A stretch of 64,000 bases of DNA from assembly GCF_900188025.1 (NCBI RefSeq), contig NZ_FZNO01000004.1:62001-126000 (forward strand), written 5' to 3'. Below the pieces are notes generated by a model that was given only the letters and a program-made list of their open reading frames with translations, was not told the origin of the DNA and made no database searches. Positions 4,245 through 54,238 of this stretch are shown in pieces. Position 1 is the stretch's first letter; every line of letters begins with the position of its first letter. Origin of the DNA: Blastococcus mobilis (GTDB taxonomy: Bacteria; Actinomycetota; Actinomycetes; Mycobacteriales; Geodermatophilaceae). The position numbers and the translations under genes are program-made.

Positions 4245-5309
4245 GTGGATGTGCTGAGCGCCGGTCACGAACAGGTCGTCTTCTGCAGCGACACCGAGTC
4301 GGGGTTGAAAGCAGTCATCGCCATCCACTCGACGGCCCTCGGTCCGGCGCTCGGCGGTACGCGGTTCTACCCGTACGCGAGCGAGGAGGCGGCGGTCGCG
4401 GACGCGCTGCGGCTGTCGGCGGCGATGTCCTACAAGAACAGCCTCGCCGGCCTGGACCTCGGTGGCGGCAAGGCCGTCATCATCGGTGATCCGCGAACCC
4501 AGAAGACCGAGGCGCTGTTGCGCGCCTACGGCCGGTTCGTCGAGACGCTCGGCGGGCGCTACCTGACCGCGTGCGACGTCGGCACCTACAACGCCGACCT
4601 CGACGTCGTCGCCCGGGAGACCCGCTTCGCCCACGGCCGGTCGGAGGCCTACGGCGGCTGCGGCGACTCCTCGGTCCTCACCGCGTACGGCGTCTTCCAG
4701 GGGATGCGCGCCGCGGCCCAGCACTGCTGGGGGACACCGTCCCTGGAGGGGCGCACCGTCGCCGTCGCCGGGGTGGGCAAGGTCGGTTCGTGGCTGGCCG
4801 GCCACCTGGTGGACGACGGCGCCGACGTCGTCGTCACCGATGTCGACCCGGCCGCGGTCGAGCGGCTCCGAGTCCGGCACCCCGGCGTGCGCGCCGTCGC
4901 GGACACCGCGGAGCTGATCCGCACGCCGCACGACGTCTATGCCCCTTGCGCCCTCGGTGGCGCGCTCGACCCGGTCACCGTGGCCGAGCTGCCCTCCCGC
5001 ATCGTCTGCGGCGGGGCGAACAACCAGCTGGCCACGCCGGAGGTCGCCGAGCAGCTGCGCGGGCGCGGGATCCTCTACGCGCCGGACTACCTCGTGAACG
5101 CCGGCGGGGTCATCCAGGTGGAGGACGAGCGGCACGGGTTCTCCTTCGCCCGTGCACAGTCCAAGGCCAGCGGCATCTTCGAGGTCGCCCTGCGGGTGTT
5201 CCGGGCCGCCGACGAGGAGCGCGTGTCCCCGGCCGTGGCGGCCGACCGGTTGGCCGAGGAGCGGATCCGCTCGGTCGGCCGCCTGGCGACGATCCGGCTG
5301 CCCCACTGA
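4245..5309 (+). CDS. Leucine/valine/phenylalanine-type amino-acid dehydrogenase
   Basis: A 354-residue member of the Glu/Leu/Phe/Val dehydrogenase family, which oxidatively deaminates branched-chain or aromatic amino acids with NAD+. The N-terminal dimerisation domain holds [13 protein letters not shown] and the catalytic region [17 protein letters not shown] with the two expected lysines. The C-terminal Rossmann domain has [13 protein letters not shown] followed by the acidic VTDVD that favours NAD. Length matches leucine/valine dehydrogenases (about 350) rather than glutamate dehydrogenases. GTG 4245 follows a -10 box, so the message is probably leaderless. Likely role: catabolism of valine, leucine or isoleucine; the preferred substrate is not decided by sequence. 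Confidence 0.9.
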
Positions 5310-5482
5310 GAGCTGCGACACCCGAGTGAGCGATGTCCCGCTCCCCGGGGGGAGGGACGTGTGCCCGCCGCCGATCCGTGTCGTAAGGTTGTCCAAGACA
5401 TTGTCACTCAGTCGGGGTCGCCACGCGGGCCGTCCAGCCCGGGGGCTGGTCTCCCGCACTCCGTAGCGAGGGGGTCGAGCCG

Positions 5483-5707
5483 ATGGGGCGCGGCCGAGCG
5501 AAGGCCAAGCAGACACGCGTGGCCCGTGAGCTCAAGTACAGCTCACCGAACACTGACCTTTCTGCTCTGCAGAAGGAGCTCGCCGGATCCACGCCGTCCT
5601 ACGTCGCCCCTCCGCGGGCGACGGACGACGACGCGGACGACGACGAGTACAGCGACCGTTGGGCCGACGACGACGCGGACGACGACTGGGCCGCCAGCCC
5701 GCGTTGA
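5483..5707 (+). CDS. DUF3073 family protein
   Basis: A 74-residue protein whose N-terminus (MGRGRAKAKQTRVARELKYS) matches DUF3073, a small family common in actinobacteria with no assigned function. The first half is basic, suggesting nucleic-acid or ribosome contact (inference). The second half is strongly acidic with repeated DDDADDD runs and probably disordered. A GAGGGGG ribosome site lies about 8 bases before ATG. It stands alone and is followed by a strong bidirectional hairpin shared with purM. Confidence 0.88.
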   Translation: MGRGRAKAKQTRVARELKYSSPNTDLSALQKELAGSTPSYVAPPRATDDDADDDEYSDRWADDDADDDWAASPR

Positions 5708-5735
5708 TCGGTTGATCCGCAGCGTCTGATCGAGG

Positions 5736-5765
5736 ACACCGCAGCTCCTCCGGGAGCTGCGGTGT
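5736..5765. terminator. Bidirectional hairpin between DUF3073 gene and purM
   Basis: A perfect 12-bp inverted repeat (5736-5747 with 5754-5765, 6-base loop CTCCGG) lies between the convergent ends of the DUF3073 gene and purM. There is no long T-run, as is usual for actinobacterial terminators. Confidence 0.8.
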
Positions 5766-5798
5766 TCTCACGCACCGTCCGAGCGGCCACCGTGGCCG

Positions 5799-6860
5799 TC
5801 AGCGGTAGGAGCCCACCAGACGGGCGGCCGGGGTGTCGGCGTCTTCGCGACGGCCGATGCTGCCGGCGACCCACGTGGGGACGCCTGCCGCGGTCAGCTG
5901 CGCGACGGCGTCATCCGCGGCGTCGGGCGCCACGGCGGCGACCATGCCGACGCCGCAGTTGAACGCCCGCTCGGACTCCTCCCGCGGGACGCCGTGCTCC
6001 TCCATGAGCCGCACCGCGGCCGGCAGCGACCACGTGGTGCGGTCCAGCACCGCCTCGAGCCCGTCCGGGACGACCCGGGCGGTGTTGCCGGCCAGCCCGC
6101 CGCCGGTGATGTGGGCGAAGGCGTGCACGCGGTCGACGCCGAGTGCGTCGACGAGCGCCAGGCAGTCGCGGGCGTAGATGCGGGTCGGCTCCAGCAGCTC
6201 CTCACCCAGCGGTCGGACCAGTCCCGCCGGAGTGGCGTGCAGGTCCAGGCCCGCCGCGCTCACCACCCGCCGGACCAGTGAGTAGCCGTTGGAGTGGAAG
6301 CCGGACGACGCCATGGCGATCACGGCGTCGCCCTGCCGCACCCGCTCCGGGCCCAGGACGGCGTCGGCCTCCACGACACCGACCGCAGTCGCGGCCAGGT
6401 CGTACTCGTCGGCGTCCATGAGGTCGCCGTGCTCGGCCGTCTCGCCGCCCACGAGTGCAGCGCCCGCCCGGGTGCAGCCCGTGGCGATACCCGTGACGAT
6501 CGCGGCGACCCGCTCCGGGACGACCTTCCCGCAGGCCACGTAGTCCTGGAGGAACAGCGGCTCGGCCCCGCAGGCGACCAGGTCGTCGACGACCATCGCG
6601 ACGAGGTCGATGCCGACGGTGTCGTGCCGGTCGAGCTGCCGGGCGAGGGCAATCTTGGTGCCGACGCCGTCGGTGGAGGAGGCCAGCAGGGGTCGGCGGT
6701 ACTTCGCCGTGTCCAGCGCGAACAGGCCCGCGAAGCCGCCGAGCCCGCCCACGACCTCCGGGCGGTTGGTTCGCTCCACCGCGGCGCGCATCAGCGTGAC
6801 GGCGCGCTCCCCGGCGTCGATGTCGACGCCGGACGCCGCATACGTGAACTCGGTGCTCAC
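5799..6860 (-). CDS. purM: Phosphoribosylformylglycinamidine cyclo-ligase (AIR synthetase)
   Basis: A 353-residue enzyme for step five of purine synthesis: ATP-dependent ring closure of FGAM to aminoimidazole ribotide. Family signatures are clear: SSTDGVGTKIALA, GIDLVAMVVDDL, GAEPLFLQDYVACG and VGGETAEHGDLM (ATP and metal binding), then GNTARVVPDGLEAV and FNCGVGMVA near the C-terminus. Length is normal. It lies downstream of purF on the same strand across a 157-base spacer filled with GCTCGCTCC-like repeats, so the two are probably expressed together. Confidence 0.97.
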   Translation of the reverse strand: MSTEFTYAASGVDIDAGERAVTLMRAAVERTNRPEVVGGLGGFAGLFALDTAKYRRPLLASSTDGVGTKIALARQLDRHDTVGIDLVAMVVDDLVACGAEPLFLQDYVACGKVVPERVAAIVTGIATGCTRAGAALVGGETAEHGDLMDADEYDLAATAVGVVEADAVLGPERVRQGDAVIAMASSGFHSNGYSLVRRVVSAAGLDLHATPAGLVRPLGEELLEPTRIYARDCLALVDALGVDRVHAFAHITGGGLAGNTARVVPDGLEAVLDRTTWSLPAAVRLMEEHGVPREESERAFNCGVGMVAAVAPDAADDAVAQLTAAGVPTWVAGSIGRREDADTPAARLVGSYR

Positions 6861-6900
6861 TGCTCGGTTCCGCCCTCGTTCCGCTCCTCGGTCGACGCCC

Positions 6901-7017
6901 TTGGTCGCCTTCGCGCTCGCTCCGCTCCTCGCTCGCTGGCGCTCGCTGCGATGCTCACTCGCTGTCGGCTCCCGGCATCCCCCTGCGATGCTCGCTCGGG
7001 CGTCACTCTCGCGGTGC
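6901..7017. repeat. Low-complexity GCTCGCT spacer repeat between purF and purM
   Basis: The spacer is made of repeated GCTCGCT / TCCGCTCCTCGCTCG words with CTGCGATGCTC at 6946-6956 and again at 6983-6993. The words TCCGCTCCTCGCTCG and CTCGCTGCGATGCTC also occur, in reverse orientation, in the 80-bp tandem repeat at 58.2-58.4 kb, so this appears to be a dispersed intergenic repeat. It encodes nothing convincing. Confidence 0.6.
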
Positions 7018-8556
7018 TCACGGCCGGGTCAGCGCGTCCTCGGCGCCGCCGGGAACGGTGGCGCTGCCGGCCTGCTGGCCGGTCCAGCCGCTGATGGCGC
7101 GGTGCTCGATCCCTTCGAGCACGTGCTTGCCGAGCACCTCGGGCTCCCCCAGCGGGATCGGGTACTCGCCGGTGAAGCAGGCGGTGCACAGTCGGCTGGC
7201 GGGCTGCTCCGTCGCTGCGATCAGGCCCTGCTCGGAGACGTAGCCCAGGGAGTCGGCGTTGATCGATGCGCGCACGCCGTCGACGTCGAGGCCGTTGGCG
7301 ACCAACTCGGCGGGGCTGGCGAAGTCGATGCCGTAGAAGCACGGCCACTTCACCGGCGGGGAGGCGATCCGGACGTGCACCTCGATGGCGCCGGACTCGC
7401 GCAGCATCCGGATCAGGGCACGCTGGGTGTTCCCCCGCACGATCGAGTCGTCGACGACCACCAACCGCTTGCCGCGGATGACGTCACGCAGGGGGTTGAG
7501 CTTGAGCCGGATGCCCAGCTGCCGGATCGTCTGGCTCGGCTGGATGAAGGTGCGCCCCACGTAGGAGTTCTTCACCAGGCCGAGCCCGTAGGGGATCCCG
7601 GAGGCCTCGGCGTAACCGACCGCCGCGGGGGTTCCCGACTCCGGCACCGGGATGACCAGGTCGGCCTCGACGGGGTGCTCCTTGGCCAGCCGCCGGCCGA
7701 TCTCGACCCGCGCGGCGTGCACGCCACGGCCGGAGATCGTGGTGTCGGGCCGGGCGAGGTAGACGTACTCGAAGACGCACCCCTTGGGCTCGGCGACCGC
7801 GAAGTGCTGGCTGCGCAGGCCGTTCCCGTCGATCGCGATGAGCTCGCCGGGCTCGACCTCGCGGACGACGGAGGCGCCGATGATGTCGAGGGCGGCGGTC
7901 TCGCTGGCGACCACCCAGCCGCGCTCCAGTCGCCCGAGCACCAGCGGCCGCACCCCCTGGGGGTCACGGGCGGCGTACAGGGTGTCCTCGTCCATGAACG
8001 TGAGGCTGAAGGCGCCGCGGAGCTGGGGCAGCACCTCCATCGCCGCGGCCTCGACCGAGAGGTCCTGGTGGGCGGCGATCAGCGCGGTGATCAGGTCGGA
8101 GTCGTTCGTGGCGACGAACGCCCCGGCCACGCCGTCGTCGGCGGCCTTGGCGGCCAGCTCGGCGGTGTTGACCAGGTTCCCGTTGTGGCACAGCGCCAGG
8201 CCGGTGCCCGCCTCGGTGGTGCGGAACGTCGGCTGGGCGTTCTCCCACGTGGAGGCGCCCGTCGTGGAGTACCTGGTGTGGCCGACGGCGAGGTGGCCGC
8301 GCAGGCTGCCGAGGGTCGGCTCGTCGAAGACCTGGCTGACCAGCCCGAGGTCCTTGTAGACGACGACCGAGGCGCCGTCGGACACCGCGATCCCGGCCGC
8401 CTCCTGACCGCGGTGCTGGAGGGCGTACAGACCGAAGTAGCTCAGCTTCGCGACCTCCTCCCCCGGCGCCCAGACACCGAAGACGCCACAGGCGTCCTGG
8501 GGACCGGGAGCGTGGGGGTCGAGGTCGTGCGTCAGCCGTCCATCACCGCGAGGCAC
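7018..8556 (-). CDS. purF: Amidophosphoribosyltransferase
   Basis: A 512-residue enzyme for the committed step of purine synthesis, moving the glutamine amide to PRPP. The N-terminal nucleophile cysteine is residue 23 (after DA, in ACGVFGVW), so the first 22 residues form a propeptide as in Bacillus-type enzymes. The glutaminase part has YALQHRGQEAAGI. The PRTase part has the PRPP loop VVVDDSIVRGNT. The cysteines around PCFYGIDF and in LCTACFTGEYP fit the 4Fe-4S cluster of this class. The GTG start at 8556 is 6 bases after TAGGCT (8563-8568), so the transcript is probably leaderless. purM follows downstream. Confidence 0.97.
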   Translation of the reverse strand: MPRGDGRLTHDLDPHAPGPQDACGVFGVWAPGEEVAKLSYFGLYALQHRGQEAAGIAVSDGASVVVYKDLGLVSQVFDEPTLGSLRGHLAVGHTRYSTTGASTWENAQPTFRTTEAGTGLALCHNGNLVNTAELAAKAADDGVAGAFVATNDSDLITALIAAHQDLSVEAAAMEVLPQLRGAFSLTFMDEDTLYAARDPQGVRPLVLGRLERGWVVASETAALDIIGASVVREVEPGELIAIDGNGLRSQHFAVAEPKGCVFEYVYLARPDTTISGRGVHAARVEIGRRLAKEHPVEADLVIPVPESGTPAAVGYAEASGIPYGLGLVKNSYVGRTFIQPSQTIRQLGIRLKLNPLRDVIRGKRLVVVDDSIVRGNTQRALIRMLRESGAIEVHVRIASPPVKWPCFYGIDFASPAELVANGLDVDGVRASINADSLGYVSEQGLIAATEQPASRLCTACFTGEYPIPLGEPEVLGKHVLEGIEHRAISGWTGQQAGSATVPGGAEDALTRP

Positions 8557-12716: not shown

Positions 12717-12756
12717 CACTGCGCCCCGTCCGCTCCCGAGCGGACGGGGCGCAGTG
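12717..12756. terminator. Strong bidirectional terminator hairpin
   Basis: A perfect 19-bp inverted repeat (12717-12735 with 12738-12756) leaves a 2-base gap, in practice a 4-base loop. It separates the MFS small-subunit gene from the convergent sterol-carrier-like gene, whose stop codon begins at 12757. There is no T-run. Confidence 0.85.
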
Positions 12757-13140: not shown

Positions 13141-15473
13141 CAGCTGGTCGGGACGGTGCCCGCCGGAACGGTGCCGATCGTGGCTTCCGGGCTGCCGAAC
13201 AGCGCCGGGAGGGTCGCCGACCACGCCGCGCGCAGCTCGTCGAGCGGCAGGTCCAGCAGGCCGTCGACGGTGAGCGCCGCCCCGCCCGTCGTCCCCAGTT
13301 CCGTCACGGGGACGCCGGCCCACTGCGCCGTCGTCTTCACGCCACCGGGATCCGACGTCGTGACGACGACGCGGGCGGTGGACTCGCTGAACAGCGCCGT
13401 GAACGGGTCGCCGTCCAGGTGCAGGCGCGCGCCCACCCCGTGGCGCAGCGCGGACTCCGCGAGCGTCTGCGCGAGGCCGCCGTCGGCGAGGTCGTGCGCA
13501 GACGTGATCAGGCCCTCTCGGCCCAGCGCAGCCAGCAGGTCGCCCAGCGTCCGCTCGGCGGCCAGGTCGACCGCCGGGGGCCGCCCGCCCAGGTGTCCGT
13601 GCACGACCGACGCCCAGGCCGAGCCGCCGAACTCCGGCCGCGTCTCGCCGAGCAGGAGGACGGTCTCCCCCTCCTGTCGCCAGCCGGAGGGCACGCGGCG
13701 GCGGACGTCGTCGTGCACGCCCAGGACGCCGATCACCGGCGTGGGGTTAATCGGCACGTCGCCGGTCTGGTTGTAGAGGCTCACGTTGCCGCCGGTGACC
13801 GGCAGCCCGAGCTCCCGGCAGGCGTCGGCCAGGCCGCGGACGGCCTCGGCGAACTGCCACATAACCTCCGGCTCCTCCGGGGAGCCGAAGTTGAGGCAGT
13901 TGGTGACAGCGAGCGGCTTGGCACCGGAGACGGCGACGTTGCGGTAGGCCTCGGCGAGGTTCAGCTGGGCGCCGAGGTAGGGGTCGAGGCGCGCATAGCG
14001 GGCGTTGCCGTCGAGGGAGAGCGCGATGCCGCGGTGGCTCTCCTCGTCGATCCGCACCACGCCGGCGTCCTCCGGCTGGGCCAGGACGGTGTTGCCGCGC
14101 ACGTAGCGGTCGTACTGCTCGGTGACCCAGGTCTTGTCGGCGCCGTCCGGGCTGCTGACGACCGCGAGCCAGTGGGCCTCGAGCTCGGCGCCGGTGACCG
14201 GGCGCGGGAGGCGGGCGGCGTCGTCGGCCTGGAGGGCGTCGAGGTCGGCGGGGCGCTGCATCGGGCGCTCGTAGACGGGTCCCTCGTGGGCCACGGTGCG
14301 CGGCGGGACGTCGACGATGCGCTCGCCGTGCCAGTCGACGGTGAGCCGGTCGCCGTCGGTCACCTCACCGATGACGGTGGCGAGCACGTCCCACTTGCGA
14401 CAGACGGCGAGGAACTCCTCGACCTTGGCCGGCTCGACGATCGCGCACATGCGCTCCTGCGACTCGCTCATCAGGATCTCGGCCGGGGTGAGCGTGCTGT
14501 CGCGCAGCGGGACCGTGTCGAGGTCGATGTGCATGCCGCCGGTACCGGCGCTGGCCAGCTCGCTGGTCGCGCACGAGAGGCCCGCGCCGCCGAGGTCCTG
14601 GATGCCGGTGACGAGGTCGACGGCGAAGATCTCCAGGCACGCCTCGATCAGCAGCTTCTCGGTGAACGGGTCACCCACCTGGACGCTGGGGCGCTTGGCC
14701 GGACCCTCGGCGTCGAAGGTCTCCGACGCCAGGACGCTGACGCCGCCGATGCCGTCGCCGCCGGTGCGGGCGCCGAAGAGGATCACCTTGTTGCCGACAC
14801 CCTCGGCCTTGGCCAGCCGGACGTCCTCGTGCTTCATGACGCCGACGCACAGAGCGTTGACCAGCGGGTTCCCGGCGTAGCAGTCGTCGAAGAGCAGTTC
14901 ACCGCCGATGTTGGGCAGGCCCAGGCAGTTGCCGTAGCCGCCCACCCCGGCGACGACGCCGGGCAGCACGCGGGCGGTGTCGGGCGCGTCGGCGCGACCG
15001 AACCTCAGCGAGTCCATGACCGCGATCGGCCGAGCGCCCATGGTGAGGATGTCGCGCACGATGCCGCCGACGCCGGTGGCCGCGCCCTGGTAGGGCTCCA
15101 CGTAGCTCGGGTGGTTGTGCGACTCGACCTTGAAGGTCACCGCGTAGCCGTCGCCGACGTCGACCACGCCCGCGTTCTCCCCGATGCCCACCAGCAGCGC
15201 GTCGCTCGGCGGGAGATCGCCGAACTGCCGCAGGTGCACCTTGCTGGACTTGTAGGAGCAGTGCTCGCTCCACATGACCGAGTACATCGCCAGCTCGGCG
15301 GTGGTGGGACGGCGGCCCAGGATGTCGCGGATCCGCGCGTACTCGTCCGACTTCAGGCCCAGCTCGGCGTACGGCTGCTCGTCGTCCGGCGTCCGCGCCG
15401 CCAGCTCGACCGTGTCCAGGCGGTCGGCCAGCCGGCCGGGACCGGTGTCGAGATCGCTCAGTCCCTGGGTCAC
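13140..15473 (-). CDS. purL: Phosphoribosylformylglycinamidine synthase subunit II
   Basis: A 777-residue ATP-dependent synthetase subunit for step four of purine synthesis (FGAR to FGAM). This is the small, three-component PurL, about 740-780 residues, that needs PurQ and PurS. Visible signatures are [43 protein letters not shown] and [14 protein letters not shown], with a second half related to the first. The start is GTG 15473, overlapping the purQ stop by 4 bases (GTGA), with VTQGLSDLD as N-terminus. A longer upstream frame covers purQ in another frame and is rejected. The order is purS-purQ-purL then the sterol-carrier-like gene. Confidence 0.96.
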
Positions 15474-16141
15474 GCTGCAACGACCGCCTTCAAGACGCTG
15501 GTGAAGAAGCCCAGCCCGTCGGTGCTCGGCCCGGTGAGGTCCTCGACGGCGTGCTCGGGGTGCGGCATCAGGCCGACGACCCGGCCGTCCTCGCTGGTCA
15601 CGCCGGCGATGTCGCGGCTGCTCCCGTTGGGGTTGCCGTCGACGTAGCGGAACACGACCCGCCCCTCGCCCTCCAGGCGGTCGAGGTCGGCGTCGGCGGC
15701 CACGTAGCGGCCCTCGCCGTTCTTGACCGGGATCACGATGCGCTGGCCCTCGCTGTAGTCCGTCGTCCAGGCCGTGTCGGCCCGCTCGACCTGCAGCACC
15801 TGGTCGCGGTTGCGGAAGTGCAGGTGGCTGTTGCGGGTCAGCGCGCCCGGGAGGAGGCCGGCCTCGCAGAGCACCTGGAAGCCGTTGCAGATGCCGAGCA
15901 CGGGGAGGCCCTGCTTCGCGCGGTCGACGACGTCCTGCATCAGGGGTGCGCGGGCGGCGATGGCACCGGCCCGCAGGTAGTCGCCGTAGGAGAAGCCGCC
16001 GGGGAGGACGACGGCGTCGACGTCCTTGAGGTCGTGGTCGGCGTGCCACAGAGCGACCGGCTCACCCCCGGCCAGCCGCACCGCGCGGGCGGCGTCGACG
16101 TCGTCCAGGGAGCCCGGGAAGGTCAGAACACCGATGCGCAC
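15470..16141 (-). CDS. purQ: Phosphoribosylformylglycinamidine synthase subunit I (glutaminase)
   Basis: A 223-residue class I glutamine amidotransferase that feeds ammonia to PurL. The catalytic cysteine is in [17 protein letters not shown]. The glycine-rich [19 protein letters not shown] and the C-terminal histidine/glutamate in [12 protein letters not shown] complete the site. GTG 16141 gives the standard N-terminus [14 protein letters not shown]. It begins 11 bases after the purS stop and overlaps purL by 4 bases, so the three subunits form one operon. Confidence 0.96.
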
Positions 16142-16152
16142 AGCTCGTTCTC

Positions 16153-16392
16153 TCAGTCGGTGGTGAGGTGCAGTTCGACGTCCTCGATGACGGGGTTGGC
16201 CAGCAGCGTCTCGGCGATCTGCTTCAACTCCGCCTCGTCGGGCGTGCCGTCGACCTCGAGGACGAAGTGCTTGCCCTGGCGGACGCTGCGGATGCTGTCG
16301 TGGCCCAGCCGGCCCAGCGCTCCGAGCACCGCCTGACCCTGAGGGTCGGAGATCTCCGGCTTGAGGACCACGTCGACGACCACCCGGGACAC
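16153..16392 (-). CDS. purS: Phosphoribosylformylglycinamidine synthase subunit PurS
   Basis: A 79-residue PurS, the small bridging subunit of the PurLQS complex. The start is GTG 16392 ([19 protein letters not shown]), which gives the usual family length of about 80. A TACCCT -10-like box (16400-16405) lies 7 bases upstream, suggesting its own leaderless promoter. A longer reading to 16467 begins inside the palindrome at 16443-16499 and is an artefact of that repeat. Residues [16 protein letters not shown] and [11 protein letters not shown] are typical. Having its own promoter fits its separation from purC by the DUF559 unit. Confidence 0.93.
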
Positions 16393-16442
16393 GCCAACGA
16401 GGGTACCTGGGCGCGTTTTCGCCCCTGCCCCGCTCGTTTCCC

Positions 16443-16499
16443 GCGAGATCTGCACACTCGTGGCCATCAGCGCCTGATGACCACGAGAACGCAGAACTC
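16443..16499. repeat. Palindrome flanking the DUF559 gene (3' side)
   Basis: An imperfect hairpin, with about 21 of 26 arm positions pairing (arm 16445-16470 against roughly 16473-16499). Its right arm runs into the stop codon of the DUF559 gene. The left arm at 16443-16471 is an exact 29-base reverse complement of 17457-17485 on the other side of that gene, so the gene is bounded by 29-bp inverted repeats. It could also end transcription of the DUF559 gene. Confidence 0.85.
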
Positions 16500-17370
16500 A
16501 CTGGCCCAGCGCCCGCAGGATCTGGGCCACGACCTCCTCTGGTCGACCGAGCACGTCCGCGCCGCTGAAACGCAGGACCGTCCAGCCGGCCGCGACGAGC
16601 GCGTTCTGCCGCCGGAGGTCCCGCACGAAGACTCCACGCTCGCGATGGACGGCACCGTCGAACTCGACGACCACCCCGTGCTCGGGCCAGGCGAAGTCGG
16701 CACGGAACTCTCCACCTGCCGTACGGATCACGTACTGGAGCTCTGGAGCCGGAACGCCCGCGGTGTGCAGGAGCCACCGGAGCACCGACTCCATAGGCGA
16801 CTCCGCACGTGGATCCGCAACGGGGAGGACGGCTCGGGCCCGCGCGGAACCGCGTCCGGACGGCCGGAGTCGCAGCTGAGCGTGCAGGTCGTCGACGGAG
16901 CACCAGTGGGCCAGCAGCTGGTCGGTCACCGCCAGCAGCGCCGACGGCGCCAGGGTGGCCGCGAGGTCGCGCCAGGTGCGCTGCGGGTTGGTGAGCCGGA
17001 AGCCGAGCCGTTCGACGACCTCGGCTGCCATCAACGGACGGCGATGGATGCTGCGGTCCACACGGGCGCGCACCGCCGATCCGGTCACGACGGTGAGATG
17101 AACGCGGGGATCCTCGGGCTGCATGGGGATCGCGAGGCCCCAGATCGTCGCCGCCGTGACGTGGCTGACGACGGCGTTCGGGGGTGCGCTCAGCAGGACG
17201 GCGGTGATCCGGGCCGTCACGTCATCGAGCAGCGCCCGAGGCAGGTAGGTGTCTCGGGACAGACGCGCGACGCCCCGGTGACGCAGCTGCCAGTCGGAGA
17301 TGCCTGCGGAGGCGGCGCCGGACCGGGTGGCCGGGCCGGTGAGACGGGGACGAACCGGGCGACTGGGCAC
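16498..17370 (-). CDS. DUF559 (PD-(D/E)XK-like) protein, copy A
   Basis: About 290 residues from GTG 17370 ([10 protein letters not shown]). The N-terminal part resembles the winged-helix start of AbiEi-like proteins ([19 protein letters not shown], then [15 protein letters not shown]). The C-terminal part is a DUF559 / Vsr-like nuclease domain: [20 protein letters not shown] supplies the spaced D and E-F-D, followed by [17 protein letters not shown]. Nuclease activity is inferred from fold similarity only. The gene is enclosed by palindromes sharing a 29-bp arm and sits within the purine cluster between purS and a damaged hydrolase. It is a distant relative of the gene at 53.1-54.2 kb. Biological role unknown. 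Confidence 0.82.
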
Positions 17371-17426
17371 CGCCGGAGCCTGCTCCAACCGGCACCGACC
17401 CCGCTGGCGTCGTCCACAACCCTGGA

Positions 17427-17485
17427 GCGAGATCTGCGAACTCGTGGCCATCAGCGGCTGATGGCCACGAGTGTGCAGATCTCGC
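17427..17485. repeat. Near-perfect 59-bp palindrome flanking the DUF559 gene (5' side)
   Basis: Arms 17427-17455 and 17457-17485 (29 bases each, 1-base centre) pair at 27 of 29 positions. The arm contains GATCTGC and CTCGTGGCCATCAGC. The right arm recurs exactly, inverted, at 16443-16471. The right end is 3 bases from the stop codon of the hydrolase, so it may also act as that gene's terminator. Such a long, almost loopless palindrome can extrude as a cruciform. Confidence 0.9.
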
Positions 17486-17488
17486 GGG

Positions 17489-18265
17489 TCAGGGGGTGAG
17501 GAGGGACCAGACGGCGTCGGGCGTCTCCCAGTGGGCGTTGTGACCGGCGCCCTCGAGGAGGACGGCGTCGGGATCGACCCGGCGCATGGCGTCCAGCCCG
17601 ACCATCGGGTCGCCCGAGCCCGCGGACAGCCGCAATGGCGCCGCGCACCGGGACAGGATCGTCTCCACCGACGGGCCCACCGCGCCGAACGCCCGCGGGT
17701 CGAGAGCGGCGATCCAGCCGCCGTGAGCGACCCGGGTCCCGGCGCGCGCCACCGGGTCGACCGGGTCGACGAGGTCGCGCAGGCCGGCCATCTTCAGGTG
17801 CCGGTCGGCGGCCTCGAGCGAGCTCGCGAAGACCTGGGGCGGCCGGGTGGACATCGCCGCGGCCCGCGTCACCTCGTCGTCGGTCCAGTCGATCTTCACG
17901 CCGACGGCGACGACCCGGTCGACAGGGACGCCGTACCAACCGCTGCCGAGCACCGCCCCGACGACGCCGCCGAACGAGTGGCCGAGCACCGTGACCCGTG
18001 TGGCGCCGGTCTCCGCGGCCAGCTCCGCCATGTCGGCGGCGTGGATGCCGTAGCCGTAGGGCGGCTGGGCCACCGAGAGTCCGTGACCGCGGAGGTCGGG
18101 CGCCGCCCACCGGCCGTCCCACGACTCATCGACCAGCGGGGGCAGCCGCCGCCACACCGCCGCCGTTGCGCCGAGGCCGCGCAGGAGGAGCAGCAGGGAG
18201 TCGCCCCTGCCGCCGGTGAAGTCGCGATGCCGCCGCTGGTCCGTCGCAGGTCAAGAGAGTCGCAC
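17489..18265 (-). pseudogene. Alpha/beta hydrolase with early in-frame stop
   Basis: From 18252 down to 17489 one frame encodes an alpha/beta hydrolase. The expected nucleophile elbow GHSFGG, the acid region and the late histidine (EGAGHNAHWE) are present. A GTG at 18265 is followed by only four codons and a TGA (18251-18253); after the stop, the frame continues with good family sequence (RDFTGGRGDSLLLLLRGLGA). No ATG or GTG lies between that stop and GTG 18157, and a start at 18157 would lose the first strand and the oxyanion loop. The usual HG of that loop reads RG here. I read this as a probable pseudogene, or one truncated at the N-terminus (222 residues if started at 18157). Confidence 0.65.
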
Positions 18266-18297
18266 GTCAGGACGGCGGCCCGTCCGAGGAGCGACCC

Positions 18298-19155
18298 TCA
18301 GGCGAACTTCTGGCCGGTGAGCTTCTCGTAGGCCGTGATGTAGCGCTCGCGCGTGGCGGCTACGACGTCGTCAGGCAGTTCGGGCGGCGGCGAGACCCGG
18401 TCCCATCCGGACGACGTCAGCCAGTCACGGACGTACTGCTTGTCGAACGAGGGCTGCACGGAACCGGGTGACCAGGTCGCCGCAGGCCAGAAGCGGGACG
18501 AGTCGGGCGTGAGCACCTCGTCGCCCAGCACCAGCCCCTCCCCCGCGAGCCCGAACTCGAACTTGGTGTCGGCCAGGACGATCCCGGCGTCGAGCGCGAT
18601 CTCCGCGGCGCGCGAGTACAGCGCCAGGGTCAGCTCCCGCAGCTCCTCCGCCCGCGCAGCACCGACGGCGGAGACGACGGCGGAGAAGTCGATCGCCTCG
18701 TCGTGTTCCCCGACCTCCGCCTTGGTCGACGGCGTGAACACCGGCGCCGGCAGCCGCGAACCCTCGACCAGCCCGGCAGGCAGGGGGACGTCGCGGATGG
18801 ACCCGGTGCGCGAGTACTCCACGGTGCCGGACCCGGAGAGGTAACCCCGCGCCACGCACTCGACCGGCAGCATCTCCAGCCGCCGGACCAGCATCGCCCG
18901 ACCGGCCACCTCCGACGGCACGTCCGAGGCCGAGATGAGGTGGTGGGTAGCCCCGAAGGACGACAGCACCGGCGTCAGCTGCTGGAACCACCACACCGAC
19001 AGCTGGGTCAGCACCCGCCCCTTGTCGGGGATCGGCGTCGGCAGCACGTGGTCGTAGGCCGAGATCCGGTCCGACGCCACCAGCAGCAGCCGGTCGGAAC
19101 CGGCGTCGTAGATCTCGCGCACCTTGCCCCGGGCGACGAGCGGCAGGTCGATCAC
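18298..19155 (-). CDS. purC: SAICAR synthase
   Basis: A 285-residue phosphoribosylaminoimidazole-succinocarboxamide synthase, joining CAIR with aspartate using ATP. Signatures are ARGKVREIYDAG and SDRISAYDHVLPTPIPDKG at the N-terminus, ECVARGYLSGSG, and ADTKFEFGLAGEG then PDSSRFWPA. This is the longer type common in actinobacteria. GTG 19155 (VIDLPLVARGKV) overlaps the purB stop by 4 bases, so purB and purC are coupled. Confidence 0.96.
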   Translation of the reverse strand: MIDLPLVARGKVREIYDAGSDRLLLVASDRISAYDHVLPTPIPDKGRVLTQLSVWWFQQLTPVLSSFGATHHLISASDVPSEVAGRAMLVRRLEMLPVECVARGYLSGSGTVEYSRTGSIRDVPLPAGLVEGSRLPAPVFTPSTKAEVGEHDEAIDFSAVVSAVGAARAEELRELTLALYSRAAEIALDAGIVLADTKFEFGLAGEGLVLGDEVLTPDSSRFWPAATWSPGSVQPSFDKQYVRDWLTSSGWDRVSPPPELPDDVVAATRERYITAYEKLTGQKFA

Positions 19156-20459
19156 GTCAGTGCGGCCAGCCGGTCGAACAGCGGACCGAGGTTGGTCACG
19201 TACCGCTCCGGCCGGCAGATCTCGTCCAGGCGCGCCTCGTCCAGCGTCACGCCGGAGTCCTTCGCCCGCGCCCGGAGCGTCTCCCGGAACGGCGTCCCGG
19301 AGTTCCAGGTCTCCATCGCCGCGCCCTGCACCAGCGCGTACGCGTCTTCCCGGGAGAGTCCGCCCTCGACCAGCTCCAGCAGTACCGACGACGTGTAGAT
19401 CAGGCCGCCGGTGGACTCCAGGTTGAGGCGCATCCGCTCGACGTCCACGACGAGGTTCTCCACGAGCCCGGCCGTCAGGTCGAGCAGGTAGTCGGTGGTG
19501 ATCGCGGCGTCGGGCAGGAAGACCCGCTCGGTGGAGGAGTGCGAGATGTCGCGCTCGTGCCAGAGCGGGATGCCCTCCATGACCGGCACGATCGCCGCCC
19601 GCACCACCCGCGCCAGCCCGGCGATGCGCTCCGAGCGGATCGGGTTCTTCTTGTGCGGCATCGCGCTCGAGCCCTTCTGGCCCGACCCGAACGCCTCCGA
19701 CAGCTCGCGCACCTCGGTCCGCTGGCCGTGGCGTACCTCCAGCGCGATCGCCTCGCAGACCGTCGCGATGATCGCCAGCGCCGAGACCCACTCGCTGATG
19801 CCGTCGCGCAGCACCACCTGGGTGGAGGCGTCGGCCGGCCGCAGCCCCAGCGCCTCGGCGACGGCCAGCTCGACCGAGGGGTCGATCAGCGAGTACGTGC
19901 CGACGGCGCCGGAGATCGCCACCACGCCGACGGCCGAGCGCGCCGCCCGCAGCCGGTCACGGGATCGCGCCATCGCGAAGGCGAGGTCGGCGACCCGGTG
20001 GCCCCAGACGTCGGGCTCGGCGTGCACGCCGTGGGTGCGGCCGACCTTGATGGTGTCCCGGTTCGCCAGGCCGTGGTCGCGCAGCGCGGCGACCAGCCGG
20101 TCGGCCTTGGCCAGCAGGACGTCGGTGGCGTCGGTGAGCTGCACCGCCAGCGCCGTGTCCAGCAGGTCCGACGACGTCATGCCGTGGTGCACGTAGGCCG
20201 CGGCCGACCGCGGCGAGGTGTTGTCGGCCCACGCGGTGAGGAAGGCGATGACGTCGTGCTGCGTCGTCTCCTCGATCTCCGCGACCCGCTCGGGCGTGGG
20301 CGGCGGCGCGTTGCGCACCGGCTCCACCACCTCCGCCGGCACCCGGCCGGCAGCGGCGTGCGCCTCGAGGACGAGCGTCTCCACCCGGCACCAGAGCTCG
20401 TACTTGTGCTGGTCGCTCCAGACCCGGCCCATCTCGGGGAGCGTGTAGCGCTCGATCAC
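19152..20459 (-). CDS. purB: Adenylosuccinate lyase
   Basis: A 435-residue fumarase/aspartase-superfamily enzyme that splits SAICAR and adenylosuccinate. The superfamily signature GSSAMPHKKNPIRSE is present, along with RTHGVHAEPDVWGHRV (catalytic histidine region) and the N-terminal IERYTLPEMGRVWSD. I choose GTG 20459 because AGGCGG lies 7 bases upstream and the conserved start follows directly. An in-frame GTG at 20477 would add six residues. It heads the purB-purC pair. Confidence 0.95.
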   Translation of the reverse strand: MIERYTLPEMGRVWSDQHKYELWCRVETLVLEAHAAAGRVPAEVVEPVRNAPPPTPERVAEIEETTQHDVIAFLTAWADNTSPRSAAAYVHHGMTSSDLLDTALAVQLTDATDVLLAKADRLVAALRDHGLANRDTIKVGRTHGVHAEPDVWGHRVADLAFAMARSRDRLRAARSAVGVVAISGAVGTYSLIDPSVELAVAEALGLRPADASTQVVLRDGISEWVSALAIIATVCEAIALEVRHGQRTEVRELSEAFGSGQKGSSAMPHKKNPIRSERIAGLARVVRAAIVPVMEGIPLWHERDISHSSTERVFLPDAAITTDYLLDLTAGLVENLVVDVERMRLNLESTGGLIYTSSVLLELVEGGLSREDAYALVQGAAMETWNSGTPFRETLRARAKDSGVTLDEARLDEICRPERYVTNLGPLFDRLAALT

Positions 20460-52955: not shown

Positions 52956-53050
52956 TTTCTTGCCCACCCTAACGGCAGGGATCGGACCGCTGTTCCAGGG
53001 GCCCCCAAATTTCTGCCGGTCGCGTCGCCTCGGGCGTTCATCTGGCGAGT

Positions 53051-53108
53051 ACCGCGGTGTGGTGGCGACGACCGCACCGCAGCGCGGTAGTCGCCACCAC
53101 GGTGCGGT
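53051..53108. repeat. Palindrome flanking DUF559 copy B (5' side)
   Basis: Arms 53051-53075 and 53084-53108 pair at 21 of 25 positions around an 8-base loop. They include GTGGTGGCGAC and its complement. It ends 34 bases before ATG 53142. The word CGACGACC resembles TGACGACC in the palindrome on the other side of the gene. Confidence 0.8.
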
Positions 53109-53141
53109 TCTCCTCCGCGTCGTCCACAGGCGACCTTCCCC

Positions 53142-54167
53142 ATGTCCCGACAGCTCGCACACTTCGCGGGCGCATCCACTCCTGCGCGCTGCCGCCGATC
53201 GCCGCCATGGGGTCTTCACCGCCGTCGACGCCCGACGCGCCGGCTACGCCCACCCCGAGTCCGGCACCTGTGCGCGTCCGGACGCTGGCGCCGGCTGCGA
53301 CGCGGCATCTACGTCACCAGCCACGACCTCGCCCGCGCCGAGGAGGAGGGCCGGCGCTACCAGCTCGAGTGCCTGGCGATCCTGGTGGCGCTCGATCGCC
53401 CGGCCGCAGCGCTGAGCCACCTGTCGGCCGCCCGCCTCTCGGGCCTCCTGTGGCGGGGGACATCGGACGCGGACGTACGGCTCACCGATCCGGAGCACAA
53501 CCGTCGTGGCCGCGGCTTCCGTGTGACGCGAGCGCCGCTCGACGCGACTGAGATCCGCACGCTCGGGGCGTTCCGGCTCACGACGCCGGCTCGCACGCTG
53601 ATCGACTGGGCGCGCGAGGGTCCACTGGAAGGCGCCGTCGTGGCGATGGACGCCGGTCTTCTCGCCAGGAAGGTCGGACCCGAGCAGCTCGTCGAGGCAG
53701 CCGCTCGGGCCCGCCGATGGCCGGGCGGACCTCGGGCGGCGCGTGCGCTCTCCCTGACCGACGGGCGTGCCGAGTCACCGCTGGAGACGCGGGGTCGCCT
53801 GCGGATCGTGAGCGCTGGTCTGCCCGCGCCGGAGCTCCAGGTGGAGATCCGGACCGGCGGACGCCTGATCGCGGTCGTCGACGCCTGGTTCGACGAGGCC
53901 GCGGTCGCGGTGGAGTTCGACGGGCGGGTCGAGTACACCGACCCGTGGCGGGAACGTTCCCCCGAGCGGGTGCTCTGGGAGGAGAAGCGGCGCGAGGACG
54001 AGCTCCGCGCTCTCGACATCGGCGTCGTGCGCATCGCGGACGCGGACCTGGGGGCCAGATGGCCCCGCGCCGAGCGCCGGCTGCAAGCGCTGCTCGCGTC
54101 GCCGGGACCGGCGATCCGGCGCTTCGACACGACAGCCCGGGCCCGAGGTCGGCAGCGCAGCGGCTGA
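53142..54167 (+). CDS. DUF559 (PD-(D/E)XK-like) protein, copy B, N-terminus probably shifted
   Basis: A 341-residue frame related to the gene at 16.5-17.4 kb. The C-terminal nuclease-like domain is clear (PAPELQVEIRTGGRLIAVVDAWF, AVAVEFDGRVEYTDP, then EEKRREDELRALDIGVVRI). The middle has the AbiEi-like LSHLSAARLSGLLW. The expected winged helix (RRHGVFTAVDARRAGYAHPE) appears only in another frame at about 53190-53265; one missing base near 53266 brings the frame to VRHLCASGRWRRLRRGIYV. A start at ATG 53142 (MSRQLAHFAGAS) therefore needs two compensating shifts, or the true start is lost. Role unknown; hairpins lie on both sides. Confidence 0.7.
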   Translation: MSRQLAHFAGASTPARCRRSPPWGLHRRRRPTRRLRPPRVRHLCASGRWRRLRRGIYVTSHDLARAEEEGRRYQLECLAILVALDRPAAALSHLSAARLSGLLWRGTSDADVRLTDPEHNRRGRGFRVTRAPLDATEIRTLGAFRLTTPARTLIDWAREGPLEGAVVAMDAGLLARKVGPEQLVEAAARARRWPGGPRAARALSLTDGRAESPLETRGRLRIVSAGLPAPELQVEIRTGGRLIAVVDAWFDEAAVAVEFDGRVEYTDPWRERSPERVLWEEKRREDELRALDIGVVRIADADLGARWPRAERRLQALLASPGPAIRRFDTTARARGRQRSG

Positions 54168-54180
54168 TCACCCCGGCCCT

Positions 54181-54222
54181 GTGGTCGCCACCCGAGCCGT
54201 ACAGGGCTCAGGTGACGACCAC
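54181..54222. repeat. Palindrome flanking DUF559 copy B (3' side)
   Basis: Arms 54181-54198 and 54205-54222 pair at 16 of 18 positions with loop GTACAG, 13 bases after the stop codon. The words GTGGTCGCCACC and GGTGACGACCAC echo the palindrome before the gene and the CGTGGTCATCA core of the hairpin beside copy A. It can also act as terminator between convergent genes. Confidence 0.75.
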
Positions 54223-54238
54223 GTGGCTGGAGCGGGGG

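Follow-up and report, generated by a model that had tools for sequence, protein, structure and literature searches.

The closest described systems to the locus studied here are the repetitive extragenic palindromic (REP) sequences with their REP-associated tyrosine transposases (RAYTs), whose features we take for comparison from PMC2817692, PMC3733652 and PMC3116915. Two further groups bear on it, namely the type IV antitoxins AbiEi and Rv2827c, which bind inverted repeats and autoregulate (PMC7319586), and the Vsr-like nucleases, among which a Vsr-like DUF559 protein is known in Caulobacter (PMC12907096). Here we analyzed a stretch of 64,000 nucleotides of Blastococcus mobilis DNA (hereafter the window; C73:62001-126000 of a 5.09 Mb genome, with Geodermatophilaceae bacterium URHB0062, Actinomycetota, 82% identical, as the nearest named relative found), in which a DUF559 nuclease-like gene stands between two matching palindromes inside the purine cluster. 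We found that matching palindromes enclose most relatives of this gene in the genus and that copies of these palindromes are dispersed through the genomes in numbers that depend on the gene variant. We read the unit, at a probability of roughly 0.65, as a nuclease-based analogue of REP/RAYT. Titles and abstracts of open PubMed Central text, with most subscription journals and all preprints lying outside, returned no prior report of an association between DUF559 genes and palindromes.

Matching palindromes enclose the window gene and its relatives

An initial annotation had described a pair of exact inverted 29-base arms, one near-perfect hairpin, and a hairpin at each boundary of the unit. The arm at 16443-16471 does recur as an exact reverse complement at 17457-17485, and the palindrome at 17427-17485 pairs at 27 of 29 positions (93%) around a 1-nt centre and is the top hairpin of the window (score 24; the 3 kb around it, shuffled 100 times with a first-order Markov model, gave no score above 14). 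Both boundaries carry hairpins as described, the other copy (16445-16499) being weaker at a score of 13.5, and the boundaries align with each other as inverted repeats (78% over 91 nt). Thirteen hairpins in the window score 13 or more, and 4 of these flank its two genes of the family. The assignment of the gene product to DUF559 was borne out by a profile match (E 4.4e-12).

A protein search of 16 genomes of the genus (G000-G015) gave 117 matches and, besides the window, 115 further loci (designated by L numbers), which we evaluated with a hairpin test on 114 loci and a flank test on 111 loci plus the window (112 genes); L191 was omitted from both tests and three loci with truncated flanks from the second. 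Hairpins scoring at least 17 lay near either gene end in 39 of 114 family genes vs 2 of 244 neighbouring control genes, and the 5' flank matched its own 3' flank at a score of at least 16 in 80 of 112 genes vs 1 of 246 control genes, the starts of the latter taken as the most upstream ATG or GTG. Pairs of own flanks had a median score of 22.25 vs 9 for non-own pairs (1.9% of which reached 16), while the palindrome sequences diverge widely from gene to gene. Among the 73 flank pairs scoring at least 18, 39 matched best in inverted and 34 in direct orientation, a distinction that near-palindromes blur. In the clade of the window gene the 5' palindrome runs from about 32 nt before to 25 nt after the estimated start and the 3' palindrome from about the stop codon to 60 nt past it; in other clades the 5' palindrome may lie entirely upstream of the gene. 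At the purine site, 10 of the 11 testable genes of the genus have 5' and 3' flanks that match, those of L078 not matching and L081 being too truncated for testing.

Sampling the order more widely, we found the DUF559 family in 143 of 150 genomes. Across 30 loci, one from each of the 30 best-scoring genomes, flank pairs reached a score of 16 in 13 of 16 loci from outside the genus but within its family, in 5 of 12 from other families, and in 1 of 2 from the genus (non-own pairs, 2.1%).

Plain intrinsic terminators, the alternative raised at the outset, explain neither the matching pairs, given the control genes, nor the carrier-specific copy numbers reported below. With the matching being gene-specific, and with a simple scan of 14500-19500 finding no intrinsic terminators or sigma-70 promoters, we reject terminators as a full explanation, although the palindromes may terminate transcription as well.

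Dispersed copies follow the gene variant

Genome-wide searches turned up dispersed copies of the palindromes, and in three families their numbers follow the cognate gene. For the window palindrome (match counts here often include two per place, one per strand), genomes carrying a gene of the clade had 14 (G000), 28 (G002), 12 (G003), 20 (G004), 15 (G005), 5 (G006), 22 (G008), 14 (G009), 11 (G010), 26 (G011), 0 (G012), 51 (G014) and 30 (G015) matches, and the genomes in which no such gene was found had 2 (G001), 1 (G007) and 0 (G013, 88% complete), such that this family follows a carrier-specific trend with exceptions. The palindrome of L169 gave at least 45 matches in G008, at least 72 in G015 and at least 51 in G001 (lower bounds, 40 candidates having been scored in each), with 9, 8 and 1 in the further carriers G007, G012 and G003, and 0-3 in the ten other genomes. 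What we expected beforehand for this type was abundance in G008, G015 and possibly G012 and scarcity in nine other genomes listed by name, G001 not being on that list. The palindrome of L120 gave 83 matches in G005 (40 of 58 candidates scored) and 46 in G008, the only two carriers, and 0-2 in the 14 other genomes, three of which have an orthologous gene with different palindromes. Among these orthologous genes, flanking palindromes and solo copies switched together. We consider the architecture, the dispersed copies, and the dependence of these copies on the gene variant to be well supported.

Form, location and turnover of solo palindromes

To describe the solo palindromes we used 84 of them, comprising 64 window-family places among the listed matches and 20 L120-type stretches. 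Most directly follow stop codons: 54 of the 84 have a facing gene end no more than 20 bp away vs 2.3% of random positions (crude open reading frame calls), and 21 lie between convergent genes. The L120-type element is a doublet, with an 18-bp dyad on either side of a variable linker, the dyad reading GGTACC in the G005 copies and GGTACA paired with TGTACC in 6 of 9 G008 stretches, and each of these two genomes repeats its own form in its gene-flanking palindrome. At L417 (G008, about 1040-1180) four near-identical palindromic units stand in a tandem array 34-37 bp apart. Separately, L399, L403, L404 and L407 are composite elements with a central hairpin between short GATCAGG..CCTGATC-type palindromes.

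Solo copies within a genome are alike. Arm identity in the window family was 0.91 within a solo, 0.85 between solos of one genome, and 0.77 between genomes, and in 22 of 27 pairs solos at orthologous positions were less alike (mean 0.836) than solos elsewhere in the same genome (0.895; Wilcoxon p 1.6e-4, a guide only, as loci recur among the pairs and every solo had been chosen for its resemblance to the window palindrome).

One junction between genes, that of L324, carries different palindrome families in different genomes. We scored 14 stretches from 13 genomes there against all gene-flanking palindromes, and 8 of the 14 matched a palindrome of their own genome at 20 or more (G014 59.5, G007 49.5, G008 40.5, G011 35, G001 33.5, G002 33, G015 30.5, G010 20), which was the best match of all in G007, G008, G010 and G014. 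The G006 stretch holds a window-type palindrome (48 vs 11.5 for that of its own gene) and one G012 stretch resembles that of G008 L169 (25.5 vs 12.5 own), while G003 and G005 have ordinary-looking hairpins only and G009 nothing. As an observation apart, the G002 window-family solos L355-L359 resemble L077 of G014 more closely than they do the palindromes of the gene that G002 itself carries, and were possibly left behind by a lost gene.

Fixed sites, empty sites and changing occupants

Most gene copies are inherited in place. Ten recurrent sites hold at least five loci each, most of them from a single clade, and the gene tree requires 13 site changes vs a minimum possible of 9, the 13 being an upper bound because two site labels join doubtful loci. 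These labels, S9 and S10b, join loci sharing one flank or weak similarity (L108, L123, L128; L087, L090 and L140 with the rest), and we claim no different clades there. We set aside a one-off insertion confined to the purine cluster, orthologues being found at this position in most of the genomes of the genus.

Some sites have changed occupants or orientation. Site S6 is occupied by three clades (L077; L118 and L122; L168, L173 and L175), the third of which is turned around with respect to flanks that align at 77-89% right up to the unit; at site S8 two sister subclades face opposite ways (L153 and L181 vs six others), and L093 is inverted at S9. Beside the S9 element, L089 carries about 2.2 kb of extra DNA (4839-7176, gene-oriented) relative to L092, L103, L106 and L141.

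Comparing loci with and without the unit for a clean empty site gave a divided answer (only one flank aligned at L223, L227, L231 and L233): some hold solo palindromes and several hold none. At S6, scored leaving out the palindromes of genes located there, 4 of 10 gene-less sites contain sequence similar to a palindrome that flanks a family gene in that genome (G015, L180, 38; G008, L097, 38; G011, L041, 37.5; G000, a short window-type remnant, 18), the own-genome match being the best overall in the first three and tied with that of G004 for the remnant. Other palindromes occupy gene-less S6 in G012 and G013, and no palindrome of the kind was found there in G004, G005, G009 and G010, the S6 loci without one being L227, L228, L229 and L230; likewise, the gene-less purine sites L251, L253, L255 and L259 have no palindrome beside purS. 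In G004, S8 lacks the gene and shows a wide-loop palindrome beside a terminator-like hairpin, and a G009 solo (L366) occupies the position of the G011 gene L105 with both flanks aligning. Viewed as homing-type targets, some sites occupied elsewhere hold solo palindromes and several empty sites hold none, with the gene flanks carrying whole palindromes.

The protein

The predicted structure of the window protein (mean predicted local distance difference test score 92.7) matches AbiEi over residues 31-213, with a large root-mean-square deviation (6.9), and the homing-type I-Bth0305I, 3hrl and Vsr over residues 215-317; low-ranked Foldseek rows and weak PADLOC matches to other systems were disregarded. 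By sequence profile its best solved relatives are 3hrl (5.8e-8) and 3r3p (6e-5), and the PADLOC AbiEi model matches 56 of 59 members. Six residues are invariant across the 59 aligned proteins, active-site residues among them, and dN/dS (the ratio of nonsynonymous to synonymous substitution rates) is 0.14-0.27 in nine pairs, such that the protein is under purifying selection.

Proposed mechanism and alternatives

The most economical reading is that the protein itself would bind, cut and spread the palindromes. On this model, the dyad of the protein's own palindrome would be recognised by its AbiEi-like winged-helix part, while nicking or cutting, both of such sites and of hairpin-bearing gene ends, would fall to its Vsr/homing-type nuclease domain. 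Repair would then copy a palindrome into the break, with the result that short, non-autonomous palindromes could spread to 3' gene ends, older palindromes there would be replaced, and copies within one genome would be kept alike, the whole palindrome-gene-palindrome unit moving rarely. The likeness to REP/RAYT units drawn in the initial annotation gains support from the matching flanks at the purine site and from copy numbers tracking the cognate gene. The sequence patterns themselves show matched flanks, dispersed copies tied to the gene variant, one site with several families, within-genome likeness, invariant active-site residues and purifying selection, from which binding, cutting, repair copying and replacement are inferred. 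The odds we give rest on this flank matching and on these copy numbers, and the site comparisons left them unchanged.

Several observations weigh against it. The best match of a solo is a gene of its own genome in just 24 of 64 cases (23 without ties; shuffled expectation, mean 8.9, maximum 21 in 2000), the solos of G002 and G006 being nearer to palindromes of other genomes, and at the L324 junction a palindrome of the same genome fails to rank first for 10 of the 14 stretches. Furthermore, 32 of 112 genes lack a matching pair at a score of 16, the second family gene of the window (L152) included, and two carriers have next to no copies (G012 for the window family, G003 for the L169 type). The seven Pfam families matched by the 59 members include no Y1/HUH transposase, the genomes themselves not having been searched for such enzymes. 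Finally, we know of no strand-transfer chemistry in Vsr-like nucleases, and copying would therefore need host repair.

The alternative that survives best, though we think it unlikely, is that the palindromes are terminators or binding sites of an AbiEi-type regulator, with site and protein co-evolving by selection and nothing moving. The inverted-repeat binding and autoregulation of AbiEi and Rv2827c (PMC7319586) would fit, as would the 5' palindrome covering the estimated start codon in the window's clade, the position of most solos directly past gene ends, and the ordinary-looking hairpins of G003 and G005 at the L324 junction. However, it is not obvious how the 3' copy, at the stop codon, would serve its gene as an operator, the families at one junction differ between genomes, copies by the dozen are present only together with the gene variant, and the invariant nuclease residues are left unexplained. 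Slightly less probable again is that another enzyme, a genuine RAYT or an insertion sequence transposase, moves the palindromes, the DUF559 gene being a bystander or having been captured by them; the REP/RAYT-like layout (PMC2817692) and the unsearched Y1 complement of the genomes leave room for this, whereas 80 of the 112 genes stand within a matching pair and, even between orthologues, copy number changes along with the gene variant. A gene for a nuclease of defence or of a toxin-antitoxin-like kind, with palindromes that mark or protect self DNA, as the PADLOC AbiEi matches might suggest, is very improbable given genes mostly inherited at fixed sites and, at the window locus (the only one examined for this), neighbours that are PurS and an alpha/beta hydrolase remnant with no partner nucleotidyltransferase toxin gene.

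Returning to the nuclease-based analogue of REP/RAYT, it looks like an unreported way in which short repeats are spread and homogenised, driven by a nuclease, in one actinobacterial group. A broader version, which we put forward tentatively and as possible rather than probable, is a transposase-free mobility in which sequence-specific nuclease breaks, filled by host repair from other copies, would spread, replace and homogenise dispersed palindromes, amounting to a genome-wide gene-conversion drive of RAYT-independent origin in many genomes of an actinobacterial order. If true, this would give a function to a large uncharacterised protein family and would mean that REP-like dispersal arose more than once, via unrelated enzymes; the orthologues with jointly switched flanking palindromes and solos would then form a natural series for the site choice of the enzyme.

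Features of the window

The order purS, DUF559 gene, hydrolase, purC is as first annotated (purC taken from an open reading frame). The ATG of the DUF559 gene at 17451 falls within the 5' palindrome, and the true start is uncertain for that reason.

Coordinates of the palindromes and family genes in the window
Feature	Position	Strand	Remarks
3' palindrome of the unit	16443..16501	-	weaker hairpin; outer arm identical, in inverted orientation, to that of the 5' palindrome; overlap with the stop codon
Gene for AbiEi-like winged helix and antitoxin-like module fused to C-terminal Vsr-like DUF559 nuclease	16498..17451	-	317 aa; stop included
5' palindrome of the unit	17427..17485	-	29-bp arms, 1-nt centre; annotated start codon inside
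Palindrome directly upstream of the second family gene	53047..53112	+	
Second family gene (L152)	53121..54167	+	start extrapolated from homology
Palindrome directly after the second family gene	54173..54230	+	no clear match to its 5' palindrome, score 11.5

The alpha/beta hydrolase outside the unit (17489-18322) was described as damaged, and its 5' part does look so: an in-frame stop lies upstream and the first start codon comes after an RGLG motif, which presumably stands where HGLG would be expected. The second-strongest hairpin of the window (12717-12756, 19-bp arms) matches the family palindromes poorly and is perhaps a terminator. The sole Rfam match at gathering score within the window is a tRNA, and an Rfam RNA as the identity of the palindromes was set aside.

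Comparison with known systems

The window protein is predicted to share the AbiEi fold with the type IV antitoxins AbiEi and Rv2827c, but differs from them in carrying a nuclease domain and in having no toxin partner adjoining its gene. Similarly, the modelled Vsr-like nuclease fold with its conserved active-site residues aligns it with I-Bth0305I and Vsr, from which it is set apart by fusion to the AbiEi-like module, by a whole palindrome on each side of the gene, and by the many solos. The likeness to REP/RAYT, including REPINs, extends over a gene between matching palindromes, dispersed copies near 3' gene ends, a gene that stays put while its palindromes diverge yet remain palindromic, and gene-specific palindrome families with doublets and tandem arrays. 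In contrast to RAYTs, which are Y1 HUH enzymes of the IS200/IS605 kind, the enzyme here is AbiEi-Vsr-like with no Y1/HUH match; the window, L169 and L120 families carry, by inspection, no GTAG or CGTC tag of the REP type; and, relative to the REP/RAYT systems compared, the elements measure about 55-70 bp and their hosts are actinobacteria.
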